From: Marchantia polymorpha subsp. ruderalis
Taxonomy: Eukaryota > Streptophyta > Marchantiopsida > Marchantiales > Marchantiaceae
Assembly (NCBI GenBank): GCA_037833965.1
Contig: AP031356.1
Span: 19,056,501-19,120,500, forward strand
Length of the DNA stretch: 64,000 bases
Reading direction: 5' to 3'
The notes below the pieces were generated by a model. It searched no databases. It saw nothing but the letters and a program-made list of their open reading frames with translations, and was not told where the DNA came from. Both the position numbers and the translations under genes were made by a program. The stretch's first letter is position 1, and every line of letters begins with the position of its first letter. Below are positions 3,061 to 55,348 of the stretch, piece by piece.

Positions 3061-5340
3061 TAATCCACTGTAGACCAATCACAATTTAAAAAGTTTTATT
3101 TTCTTCTTGAAAAATAGTAAAGAGCTTCAACATGTGACTTAGAGTGTGGTATGAAGTTCTTCGCAAGATTTTCATCAAAGTAATCTTGCAATGAGATAAT
3201 TCGCTTTTTGGGAGGTTGTAGATTGGACCAAAAGGAAATTTCGCAAATTTTTGGAATTCAATGTCACAATAAGAAGATAAATGCTAAGGAAGTGTATTGT
3301 TTCAAAAATATGTTTCAATAATTCTCATATTTTGTTGATAACTTGATTGTTTAAATAGGTGCAGATGTTGTAATGCCATAAATTGCAAATATATATCCAA
3401 ACACAAACCAACAATCAAACATTGAACTTGCAACATTGAACATGGTAAATATAGTAGTTTGAAACGATTCTAGGGTGGCTTGACAAAATATGAAAAACTC
3501 TGATCCAATATGTTGAATTTTCCTTTTTTCCATCTATACTTGAGTTAATCATCTCTAATCAAAAGAGAAATAAAGTGAGTATTAGAGTAAAAACTAATCA
3601 TATAAAACAAAATACTATTTTGTGTATTATGACTTTCTAGGATAGTGTCTAAGGGTTTAGTTTTTTGAGTAGAATATCTTGATTTCAAGAGCTTACTATC
3701 AATTATTTATATTGTTAGAGCGTAATTTTTAAGTACTTTAGAAAGGTTATGATGTCTTACAAGAATTCTATCAATAAAAGAAAGCAAAATTTCTGCAATC
3801 TAACTAGTTTCTAATTTTTTTTGTTATGTGGATAAAAATATTAAGACATTGACGTGATGTGGCAACACTTGCTGGCTGCAAGGTCCCAAATATGCTTGTT
3901 GATGTTCTTTTTGATCAAATTTTCTAGTGTCTTGGCTCAAATGTGCTTCAGGTGTATCAAAATTTTTGTGGCTTTGGACTTTGAGGTTTTGTGGTAACCC
4001 ACTTTTTGTTTTTCGTCGGAACTAAAACATTTTTGAATAGTAAGTACCGCGGTAGCAGCTGTAAATAGTAATCGGTACGCAAAACCAGAGTAAAAAGAGG
4101 ATAGAGGACAGTCAAGGGGTTTTGGGCTTAGGCCACAGTCCAACGCTTGGGATGGAACGGGCGGCTCATGCTGCAGGACCCGCTTTGAGCACATTCGGCG
4201 GTAGATCACTCATAACGTTTTCAATTCGTAACGCTTTGAAAGACTTAGGGTCTTGTTGGAAAGAGCTCAACGCTTTGGTTCTAACGAGCCCAAGAACTTG
4301 TGAAACGGATGAGAGGTCACTGAGTTATGAGTGTCGGAAGTTACTAATGGGGGACCTTCGGCGGTAGAGTGACTTCGGCGGTACGCCTTCGGCGGTAGAC
4401 GCCTTCGGGGCAAGCGCTGTAATAACCCACCAAAGGCTAAAACTGCAGTATGGTGGTAAAAAGATCGAACCCACAGGGACAGAGGCAACACACAGAGTAA
4501 AAAGTGTCACGTTTAACAAACTTTTGTAGAGTTTGAATTCTCAGGCGACTGTCACTCCCAGAAATACTGCAGTGCTCGACTCGGAGGCTCGACTCGGAGG
4601 AGGATGCTCGACTCGGAGGATGCTCGGAGGATGCACAGTACAGCGTAGTCACTCAACACACACACACACACACACACACCTGAAACTGGCAAAAGCACAA
4701 CTCGGAGGTCGGTCAGGACCTCCGCTTCGGATTTCAGGGGGAAAGTGTCTCAAAAGTTCACTCAGAGGTTCTGCAGGTAGTGACTCCCACTCCGGCTTTT
4801 ACTGCCCTTCCGCCAGGAACTAGCGTAGGGAACCCGGACTGGACTTCCCACTTCGGAACGAAGCCCCTTCATACGCCGTGGACGTCACCCTCGACTCACA
4901 CCAAACGCAGGGGGTATAGGCCCGACTGAGGACTTAACTGAGACACAATCCAGTAACACACACACACAACCTGAATTGCAAACCAAGGCTTACACGAAGT
5001 AATAAAACTTCACTTTGGCATTCAGGGGAAACTTCCCGTAGGAGTACAATCAGGATATGTCACTCGAAGGAGTAAGGGAGAACTGTTCAAGTCTCTAACT
5101 CGCAGCCGGCTCTGAGCATCAGAAATCACCCGCAGGTGTAGATCCGCACTACTCAAGTCTCTAACCGGGTGCTAGCTCTGAACATTCAGCCGAAGGCCTT
5201 CAACTACAACATACGGTAACTTCGCTATGCTGCAGCTTCTCTACGTGGTGCCAGGACCAAAATGCACAAACACGCCAAGAAAGTGAGTTCCTGATCTGTA
5301 CTTCCGAAATTGTTAGAGTCCCAAGGCAAAACGCCTTGAT

Positions 5341-5350
5341 CTACTTTATA
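5341..5350 (-). promoter_or_regulatory. TATA box of element A (TATAAAGTAG)
   Basis: On the minus strand the sequence is GGTATAAAGTAG, about 30 bp after the ORF stop and about 930 bp before the CA terminus. The same box occupies the same place in the other coding copies: 13828-13837 (B), 18308-18317 (C), 24016-24025 (D), 32364-32373 (E0), 36243-36252 (K) and 51427-51436 (G). Conservation across copies, with AGTTAGGAC upstream and TTCAAGGCG downstream, suggests a promoter that would start an R/U5-like transcript. Confidence 0.6.
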
Positions 5351-5382
5351 CCCTTAAAGGTCCTAACTAACACTACGCTATC

Positions 5383-52116: not shown

Positions 52117-53758
52117 TGTGGTAACCCACTTTTTGTTTTTCGTCGGAACTAAAACATTTTTGAATAGTTAGTACCGTGGTAGCAGCTGTAAATAGTAATC
52201 GGTACGCAAAGCCAGAGTAAAAAGAGGATCGAGGACAGTCAAGGGGTTTTGGGCTTAGGCCACAGTGGAACGCTTGGAATGGAACGGGCGGTTCACGCTG
52301 CAGGACTCGCTTCGAGCACCTTCGGCGATGAGGACTCAGGGAGTTGTGACTGTCGGAAGATGCGAAGGAGAACGCCTACGGATAGGCGGAAGGAGTTCAT
52401 CGTCGGCGGAATATCCGCCTTCGGCCCTAGATGTTCGCCTTCGGCGACGGACGTCTTCGGCGAACTTCAAGTCGGCAAACTAGGAGTCGGCGAACTCGAG
52501 GTCGGAGAACTCGGAGTCGGCGAACTCGAGGTCGGCGAAACATCGTGCGGGCGCCTTCGGCAATAACAGATAACAAGCCTTCGACAGTGTGCCTTCGGCG
52601 AAGGATAAAACCGGCATAACTCTTTCAACTCGTAACGGTTTGACTCAGTTAGGGTCTCGTTAGAAAGAGCTCGACGCGCTCCTTCCAACGAGCTCAAGAA
52701 TTCTTGAAACGGATCAAGGATCTGTGAGTTATGGGTGTCGGGAGTGACTGTTACAAATAGGCAACGGTGCGGAAGTGCGTCTTCGGCGGTCAACGCCTTC
52801 GGCGAACTCGAGGTCGGCGAACCGGATGCGGTTCAGAGATCTTGCGGAGTCCATATCTTTGCGATGGACTGTCGGATGGATCTGAAATTTGGTGGGGCCG
52901 TTGATCTCAGTTGGCCACGCATGCCTGCAAATATTCAGCCTCAGATCTTGGATGTAAAGACGCTGGCGGCTTTGTACAGTAGGTTTAGGATTTAGATTTA
53001 GGGTTAGGGTTAGATTTAGGTTGTAAGTTAGAGGAGAAGGCAGCCGCCGACTCCTCAGGTGTAGGATCTGTTGCGGCTCGCACCCTAGCGGGTAGCGTAG
53101 TGTTAGTTAGGACCTTAGAGGGTATAAAGTAGTTCAAGGCGTTTTGCCTTGGGATTTTTCCCAGTTTCGGAAGTGCAGATCAGGAACTCATTTTCTCTGC
53201 GTGTTTGTGTCCTTAGTTCTGTCACCACGCACGAGGAGCTACACCTTAGCGGTCCGCATTGTGTAGCTGAAGGCCTTCGGCCGAATGTTCAGAGCTAGTA
53301 CATTGGTTAGAGACTTGAGTAGTTCGGATCTACACCTGCGGGTGATTGCCGATGCTTAGAGCCAGTGACTAGTTAGATACTTGAATAGTTTCGCCCCTAC
53401 ACCTTCGAGTGTTTGTTCCTGATTGTACTCCTTCGGGATTTTTCCCCTGAATGCCAAAGTGAAATTTTGCTACTTCGTGTAAGCCTTGGTTGTAAATTCA
53501 GGTTACGCTGCAGCAGGTGCCTTCAGGGTTACCCCTGTAGTATTTCTGGGAATGACAAGTGCCTGAGAATTCAAACTCTTCAATAGACTGTTATGGTGTG
53601 TTACTGGAATGTTTCCCAGTGAGTCCTTCAGTGCGGACCTGTGTTCTCTGCACGTTTTGTGAGTTGAGAGTGTTGTTCACCGCGTATGAGTGACTTCGAT
53701 CCGAAGTAGGTAGTCCAAACCGGGTTTCCTACGCTAGCAGCAAGCTAGTGGAAGTGTT
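52117..53758 (+). mobile_element. Element S: short element inside G, 3' end deleted
   Basis: TGTGGTAACCCACTTTTTG begins after GTACT (52112-52116), interrupting G's 3' region. It has one module (52615-52745), GTCGGCGAACTCGAG dyads, the short-form segment with telomere-like patch, a TATA box at 53123-53132, and most of the 3' region. It stops at GAAGTGTT, some 330 bp before a normal CA end. GTACT follows at once (53759-53763) and G resumes. The consensus at this point is GTTGTAAAAG, so a deletion through shared GTA is likely. Confidence 0.72.
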
Positions 53759-54093
53759 GTACTTTTGAGAGACTTTCCCCTTGAAATCCTAAGCGGAGGT
53801 CTAGACCAACCTCCGAGTTGTGCTTTTCCAGTTTCAGGTGTGTGTGTTGAGTGACTTACGCTGCACTGTGCATCCTCCAAGTGACCTCCGAGTCGAGCAT
53901 CCTCCGAGTGACCTCCGAGTAGCCTCCGAGTTGAGCACTTGCAGTATTTCTGGGAGTGACAGTCGCCTGAGAATTCAAACTCTCCAAAAGTCTGTTAAAT
54001 GTGACACTTTGTACTCTGTGTGTTGCCTCTGTCCCTGTGGGTTCGATCTTTTTACCACCATACTGCAGTTTTAGCCTTTGGTGGGTTATTACA

Positions 54094-55348
54094 CGTCAGC
54101 AGGAAGTTCCCGCTGCGCCGGGCCGGACTCGGCCAACACATGAGCTTTGCAGTCGGCCGAAGCAGAAAGCACGCAAGTTGGTGTTGCCGACAAGCAGTGC
54201 GGAGACAGGGCGTACTACGAGCAGGCGGAATGTCCTGCCCACGCAGGAAGAGATAGTAGCACAGATTTTGGGGAAGTCAGTGGACTCCTCTACGCAGAAG
54301 GCGCAGACGCCTTCGGAAGAAACAAGGCGTACTGCGAGTCGGACAGCTGCGGGTCGGCAAGATTCGCCGACTACGAGCAGGGTAAAACCGGCGAACACTG
54401 TGCGGACATCTTCGGCGGAAACACCTCCGGCGAAGACACCTTCCGCGCAGATCGAACCGGAGGAGCAAGCAGAGGAAGAAGGCGGTGCAGAGACGACAAG
54501 CGCGACTGCGGCACCAGCGCCTTCAACGACAGAAGATCGAGCCGGAGCGGACGCGCAGGCAGTGGGATCTCCCACTGCCTTGGACATTTTGGCAGGCAGT
54601 GGAGCGGCGGTCGCGGCAGAAGAAGCTACGCGGCCTAGTGCGGGAGAATCGCCGAGGGCTTCTGTAGCTACAGAGATCCTCGAGACCGAAGAGGAGACGA
54701 GCTCAGAGGAGAGGAGTCGGTGCAAGGAACGCCGACAGGTGTGTTGTGCAAACAGGTAGTACCGCTACTGCGGTACCTGGATCGCAAGATGGCGAAGTAC
54801 GCTGATCGACGCCATCCGGGATCTTACATCGAGTTGATACGGAACCCGACCCGTACCAAAGTAGCGACGAACCCAGCGATGTATTCTCTGGATTTAAAGT
54901 GTCGAGATTTGTCAGAAAAGAATGACGCATTACGTCAGTCTCTGAAACTCTCACAGACGTTGCACAAGGACTTCACGGAGCTGGGGAGAACAAGTTAGCT
55001 GCTACGCAGAAGGAGTGCGAGAAGTTGGAAGCTGAGCTCCACTTCGAGCATGCTCAGATTCGCATTCTGACAGAGGAGTGTGTGCGTCAGACACAGGCGT
55101 TAGAGCGGTGTCAGCTTGCACGCCAGGCAGATGAGGAGTTATTGTGTCGACTGCAAGCGCAGTGCGACGAATTGAGGACACAGCGTGCGGAAGCGGAGCA
55201 GCAGTTGGCAGATCTTGAAGTCGATCGGCGGCGTGAGACCGATCGCATGCGAGAGGAGTTAGCTGCGCGGGCAAGTAGGTGCCTGCGGGGCTACGTCCAG
55301 TGGGAAGTGGCTGCGCAGGAGAGACTCACCTTGCGCGACCAGTCATGA
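54094..55348 (+). pseudogene. Element-borne ORF, copy F, remainder
   Basis: After G's duplication the linker continues (QQEVPAAPGRTRPTHELCSR) with GCAGACGCCTTCGG dyads. SPTALDILAGSGAAV lies near 54570. A frame change at about 54715 leads to GTPTGVLCKQVVPLLRYLDR (54720-54998). A second break near 54990 leads to the coiled coil (55025-55345). It ends abruptly at LTLRD, where non-element DNA begins. Confidence 0.78.

Follow-up and report, generated by a model that had tools for sequence, protein, structure and literature searches.

Nested solo long terminal repeats in Marchantia polymorpha point to a Ty3/Gypsy-type retrotransposon family with a selected open reading frame in U3

A 64,000-nucleotide stretch of the Marchantia polymorpha subsp. 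ruderalis genome (assembly GCA_037833965.1, contig AP031356.1, positions 19,056,501 to 19,120,500; hereafter the window) contains a nest of units that carry a long open reading frame (ORF). Taken as a whole, our data are best explained if these units are the long terminal repeats (LTRs) of a large, recently active retrotransposon family of the Ty3/Gypsy type, with an ORF under selection in the unique 3' (U3) region of the LTR; we hold this reading with high confidence. An earlier interpretation of the window from its letters alone (the sequence-only reading) had left open two explanations: giant coding LTRs that survive only as solo LTRs, or a new DNA element with retroviral-style ends. The coding LTRs are borne out. 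Their survival as solo LTRs only is not, given 1,162 junctions of LTR and primer site in the genome (241 Mb searched, 9 contigs) and two complete copies.

The sequence-only reading had proposed a search for a pair of such units, directly oriented, on either side of an internal domain with a tRNA-complementary site, and this arrangement was found on the minus strand of contig C1 (C1:377831-393369). The copy spans 15,539 bp, with two 4,870-bp LTRs that are 100% identical and in direct orientation, 5,799 bp between them and GGACG duplicated outside. A second complete copy (C1:2276811-2292340), chosen for an end spacing similar to that of the first, has LTRs of 99.75% identity and the duplication CCGCC. 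Given the identity within these LTR pairs, the family has moved recently. The internal region starts with a 22-nt spacer followed by the primer site TGGCGCCGCTGCCGGGGA, and the polypurine tract GAGGAGGGGGGCA lies directly before the 3' LTR. The first internal ORF (945 codons) encodes gag with CCHC knuckles and a weaker match to aspartyl protease (PR), and the second (946 codons) encodes reverse transcriptase (RT; RVT_1), RNase H and integrase (IN; rve). This order of domains, gag and then PR-RT-RNaseH-IN, is that of Ty3/Gypsy elements. Pfam searches at E up to 1 revealed neither the chromodomain of chromoviruses at the integrase C-terminus nor the second, archaeal-type RNase H domain of the Tat lineage, and the roughly 40 nt from the integrase stop to the 3' LTR leave no room for an Athila-type env-like ORF. 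A copy of the second subfamily (C2:31345306-31356506) follows the same plan: its internal ORFs have 944 and 946 codons, its LTR measures 5,385 bp and the ORF in that LTR has 1,049 codons. It lies in a tandem array, its second LTR was seen by the first bases only, and no duplication is readable. A third element (C1:1080168-1091384) is decayed, with many stops, and was left out of the intact-copy counts. The nearest named relatives of RT-IN are Riccia sorocarpa proteins, with 67-76% identity in the best rows (best 120 of 6,419). A complete element measures about 15.5 kb and comprises, in order, an LTR (4.9-5.4 kb), a spacer of 22-23 nt, a tRNA-Asp primer site, a Gag-protease ORF, an in-frame UAG, an RT-RNaseH-integrase ORF, the polypurine tract and the second LTR.

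Counted with up to 2 mismatches, the start motif has 20 matches in the window against 3.0 expected, and the end motif 14 against 0.89, in agreement with the nested units of shared starts and ends described before. Scanning the window with two 24-base end motifs delimited the units. The units start with TGTGGTAACCCACTTTTTG or TGTGGTACCCCAC and end with TTTRGTGGGTTATTACA. The terminal inverted repeat of 11 of 13 bases reported earlier applies to the common starts; the start type found in unit A gives 10 of 13. Seven exact 5-bp duplications were found, against the eight claimed earlier, and they flank units A to G (Table 1). One further pairing, with one mismatch (25922/54093), is taken as chance. 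The seven arose among 27 same-strand combinations of clear starts and ends, weak 8-mismatch motif matches being excluded, and are consistent with the nesting, against no exact 5-bp match at 78 outward-shifted offsets. A chance origin of the duplications, which would have undermined the whole scheme, was thus ruled out. Variable ends, the other possible objection, are countered by 5,781 exact 20-base 3' ends genome-wide (2,907 + 2,874; reversed-pattern control 0). Within the window all copies are solo LTRs or remnants: no primer site lies beside a unit end (there are just three weak matches, within units), and none of the ten window ORFs scanned matches gag or pol. The earlier statement that a second LTR, primer site, gag and pol are lacking therefore holds for the window; the complete copies elsewhere in the genome possess all four.

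The LTR ORF comprises 850-1,000 codons. It is situated in U3, shares the orientation of the element and ends a short way upstream of a TATA box. The 850-codon ORF noted earlier upstream of a TATA box is that of unit A (Table 1); in the complete copy on C1 the ORF occupies LTR positions 1057-3909 and the TATA box is at 3946. The TATAAA presumably marks a promoter at the U3/R border. We calculated the ratio of nonsynonymous to synonymous substitution (dN/dS) by the Nei-Gojobori method, with our own script on pairwise protein-guided alignments, which is not a codon-model test. Between unit A and the complete-copy LTR the ratio is 0.31 over 926 codons. By segment it is 0.76 for the 75 codons before the Met, 0.11 for the 234 of the N-terminal domain, 0.39 for the 325 of the middle, 0.26 for the 250 of the C-terminal part and 0.55 for the final 42. 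A comparison of the two complete copies of subfamily A gives 0.31 for the ORF, 0.21 for gag-PR and 0.05 for RT-IN. Between the subfamilies we quote the proportions of synonymous and nonsynonymous differences (pS/pN), because synonymous differences are saturated: 0.77/0.37 for the ORF, 0.82/0.24 for gag-PR and 0.82/0.06 for RT-IN. These values indicate that the ORF is under purifying selection, less tightly than gag or pol. The frame 29506-30783, which is not the ORF, was dropped from the calculation, and ratios against units J, D and C (dS >1.4) were not relied on.

The C-terminal end of the ORF is present in 27 of 30 5' LTRs sampled at primer-site loci, all of them on contig C1 and some of them segmental duplicates; two of the exceptions (L040 and L068) have matches only elsewhere in the ORF, and the third (L065) has none. 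The ORF is found in both subfamilies examined, and a genome search for its domain gave 8,009 first-look candidates, of which 150 were scored, with 94-100% identity to the window copy. Among the matches listed, all 91 named homologues of the domain (of 101) are from Marchantia polymorpha, and the closest named one shows 77% identity over a short stretch. RT-IN has close relatives in Riccia sorocarpa, while no named Riccia match to the LTR ORF is among the matches listed; the ORF may have been gained, lost or fast-evolving. Kinship to the plant transposon domain PF20167 was rejected, as no such Pfam match appeared among the results. Gene predictors annotate relatives of the ORF as hypothetical host proteins. 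In open-access PMC literature (titles and abstract starts) we found neither an LTR-encoded ORF of this kind nor this family, which does not imply absence from print.

Several observations weigh against a family with a working gene in its LTR. The ORF is known here as a DNA sequence, is less constrained than gag or pol, and is absent from short LTRs such as units B and E. About 29 of the 150 scored domain copies contain one or two internal stops, and in the second complete copy the ORF is open in one LTR and interrupted by an in-frame stop in the other. Pfam searches with single members or a 53-member alignment gave no convincing family, only weak unrelated matches, and two structure predictions of the domain were poor, with predicted local distance difference test (pLDDT) values of 40.4 and 46.5. 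Furthermore, 22-23 nt separate the primer site from the LTR edge, unlike the textbook scheme.

Instead of a regulator acting in trans, the ORF might encode an envelope-like protein or one of the particle, in a place like that of the retroviral 3' gene. The ORF would be the last gene of the genomic RNA, given the short distance from the integrase stop to the 3' LTR, and its C-terminal part looks coiled-coil-like by eye; no obvious signal peptide or membrane segment was seen in a reading of the sequence by eye, and Pfam gave no envelope match. We consider such a protein unlikely. Far less probable still is a mere passenger, that is, captured sequence or a by-product of composition. The LTR is GC-rich (0.559), the ORF has no known domain and a fast-evolving middle (pN 0.47 between subfamilies, besides the dN/dS given above), and the ORF-less LTRs B and E were mobile. 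A passenger is at odds, however, with a constraint that sets in at the Met, with retention of the ORF in both subfamilies although synonymous sites are saturated, and with the long open frames common among the scored copies. We give practically no weight to the DNA element with retroviral-style ends and a transposase ORF, which the near-inverted ends, the long ORF and the lack of an internal region in the window units had suggested, since gag-pol is enclosed by these very units, which are identical direct repeats accompanied by a primer site and a purine tract, paired units share a single outer 5-bp duplication, the LTR junctions recur genome-wide, and the ORF has no transposase domain in Pfam scans.

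The count of solo against paired units called for by the sequence-only reading was made genome-wide. Exact junctions of LTR, spacer and primer site number 1,162 (600 + 562), and those of purine tract and LTR 1,159 (601 + 558), with 0 in the reversed-pattern control in both cases. Assuming that one junction represents one complete two-LTR element, 5,781 - 2,324 = 3,457 of the 3' ends (60%) are solo or broken, a rough figure that rests on exact-match counts, on junctions partly from incomplete elements and on LTRs common to array neighbours. Among 24 3' ends on C1 inspected singly (6 in loci and 18 in small stretches, including L024, which is not a true LTR end), 2 are directly adjacent to a primer site. 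For comparison, a published survey reports 222 full-length LTR retrotransposons in M. polymorpha ruderalis (PMC9985172), against the 1,162 primer-site junctions of one family here, by different counting rules; standard finders may miss very long or nested LTRs. Two head-to-tail arrays were also observed, one at C6:10776521-10808529 with four readthrough sites and a repeat length of 10,662 bp, the other at C2:31351083-31384686 with four primer-site junctions and a repeat length of 11,184 bp. Each repeat length equals one LTR plus one internal region, and we infer that the arrays arose by unequal exchange.

The genome contains 31 exact matches to the 3'-end pattern of tRNA-Asp, and the three fetched were identified as tRNA-Asp(GTC) by ARAGORN. 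The primer site is complementary to the tRNA-Asp end plus CCA over 17 contiguous bases of ARAGORN's 73-nt prediction; the plant tRNA-Asp gene is presumably one base shorter, which would extend the complementarity to 18. In a search that allowed distances up to 30 nt, the gap of 22-23 nt was seen in 30 of 30 fetched loci (L039-L068), with a conserved spacer. In the textbook scheme the primer site nearly adjoins the LTR, and reverse transcription would place the spacer bases into the LTR. The gap could reflect trimming at integration or the use of another primer. Self-priming from the spacer was rejected, as no complement of 10 nt or more exists within the element.

Gag-PR and RT-IN lie in one frame, split by a UAG; the six nucleotides after it are CAACUA in subfamily A and CAAUUA in subfamily C. 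When the stop is omitted, a flank pattern matches 1,074 sites, in 1,062 of which TAG precedes; with another flank and the stop position left open, TAG was found in all of roughly 100 places listed, of 357. As the copies are mostly young, the TAG fraction mainly tells what the source elements carry, and a stronger argument is that the UAG was kept in both subfamilies despite saturated synonymous sites. UAG followed by CARYYA is the readthrough signal of tobacco mosaic virus (TMV; PMC2754532). In both subfamilies folding predicts a stem 8-9 nt after the UAG; in subfamily A, to which the shuffles were confined, it is mildly better than shuffled sequences (z -1.86; 7 of 200 fold as well). The junction thus has a TMV-type context that joins two parts of one frame, and putatively it is read through.

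Other features of the window complete the picture of the nest (Table 1). Unit G contains a second LTR start, H (52117, flank GTACT), and the sole 3' end there is its own; H probably became merged with G by recombination between the 3' parts of two LTRs. The older host of G, unit I, is continuous across the insert, as one side aligns to positions 1721-2165 of unit A and the other to 2170-2424. The pieces of unit J appear to belong together as remains of one older LTR. Unit K is internally deleted or recombined. In a blastn search with unit A, the ORF region found no match in unit E. The short ORF-less LTRs B (2,244 bp) and E (3,062 bp) have perfect duplications and hence moved, perhaps using proteins from full copies. 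The motif CCTTCGGCGG occurs 24 times on the plus strand and 8 times on the minus strand, with several occurrences inside LTRs. Pieces of host genes at the window edges (1-657, 59259-59759 and 61973-62533) match peroxidase and MACPF. At the far edge there is a class III-type peroxidase (E 3e-16) and at the near edge a weaker match to peroxidase (0.0036); the MACPF match has E 2e-06. A PDB sequence search and Rfam and tRNA scans of the window returned nothing useful.

Table 1. LTR units, LTR ORF features and readthrough junctions (window positions unless a locus is given)
Feature	Position	Strand	Basis
Unit A, uninterrupted solo LTR, 4,889 bp, inside unit B, duplication AGCGC	4418..9306	-	End motifs, duplication
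Unit B, solo LTR, 2,244 bp own sequence, ORF region lost, host of A, duplication GGTTT	3990..11127	+	End motifs, blastn
Unit C, uninterrupted solo LTR of the second subfamily (start TGTGGTACCCCAC), 5,299 bp, duplication GTAGG	17269..22567	-	
Unit D, solo LTR, 5,323 bp own sequence, host of C, duplication CTTCG	12859..23485	-	
Unit E, short solo LTR, 3,062 bp, inside F, duplication CGCCA	25922..28983	+	
Unit F, solo LTR, 5,002 bp own sequence, host of E, duplication GCGCT	25278..33346	+	
Unit G, LTR with second LTR start (H) merged in 3' part, duplication CGTCA	47412..54093	+	
Unit I, older LTR hosting G; homology ends near 55338, 3' end not found	45453..55338	+	
Unit J, remains of older LTR hosting D and F; 3' end 12452, start not found	12452..34471	-	
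Unit K, LTR with both ends, 1,820 bp, flanks non-matching	35265..37084	-	
U3 ORF of unit A, 932 codons stop to stop, 853 from domain Met	5386..8181	-	
Conserved N-terminal domain of U3 ORF, 234 amino acids	7243..7944	-	dN/dS 0.11 vs LTR of complete element
TATAAA, about 32 bp downstream of unit A ORF stop	5345..5350	-	
Part of unit G U3 ORF, 363 codons	49080..50168	+	dN/dS 0.28 vs unit A
UAG CAA CUA / UAG CAA UUA junctions	L012:6975-6985 and L069:2945-2954	-	

The structure of the element enables us to propose a putative model for the fate of the LTR ORF. Transcription would start after the TATA box, and the genomic RNA would carry the ORF once, as its 3'-most gene, in the position of sag in mouse mammary tumour virus (MMTV). 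Reverse transcription would then copy the ORF into both LTRs. Afterwards, recombination between LTRs would leave solo LTRs that still hold the gene, such as those in the window. A promoter in the early part of the LTR, or a subgenomic RNA, might serve to express the protein. Because the ORF is selected while ORF-less LTRs (B and E) were mobile, we favour, as a preference and not as a result, an accessory protein that benefits the family in trans, for instance against silencing or in particle or nuclear traffic. More tentatively, and as a proposal that we consider rather unlikely, the lineage may have made its LTR into a gene: solo LTRs would keep a selected gene, host loci would make a trans factor (e.g., an anti-silencing one) that protects and mobilises the family, ORF-less variants included, and the excess of solo LTRs would be a strategy instead of mere decay. 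If so, very many host loci would be capable of producing such a factor. A solo LTR is commonly regarded as a dead regulatory remnant, and in the present family many retain a gene with signs of selection, so that recombination between LTRs would spread a gene besides destroying an element. The liverwort lineage has a laboratory model, and in it this family is young and abundant, so the role of the LTR-encoded protein and that of the UAG readthrough are directly testable.

With plant Ty3/Gypsy elements outside the chromoviruses, the family shares TG...CA LTRs, the 5-bp duplication, the tRNA-Asp primer site, the purine tract, a gag with CCHC, and protease, RT, RNase H and integrase in Ty3 order. 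It differs in the selected long ORF in each LTR, the UAG between protease and RT, and the distance of the primer site. In MMTV the sag ORF lies in the LTR. Like sag, the present ORF is located in U3 and so at the 3' end of the genomic RNA, and is duplicated in both LTRs; the likeness is one of position, with no sequence relation expected: the host element is a plant retrotransposon, the ORF is about three times longer and no env was seen. As an ORF in U3 under selection, it has the sag-like position of an LTR-encoded accessory gene, and the accessory function is putative. The Athila and Tat lineages have a tRNA-Asp type primer site and an extra ORF after pol, in the internal region. The present family resembles them in its primer site and in its extra coding capacity on the 3' side, whereas its ORF is in the LTR, with about 40 nt between pol and LTR. 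The junction shares UAG followed by CAACUA or CAAUUA, i.e. CARYYA, with TMV-type readthrough (PMC2754532); here it is situated in a retrotransposon with a predicted stem downstream, and its activity is putative. By all defining features tested, the family is thus Ty3/Gypsy. Its lesser oddities are the primer-site gap and the TMV-type junction, and its departure is a selected gene of 850-1,000 codons inside a plant LTR.

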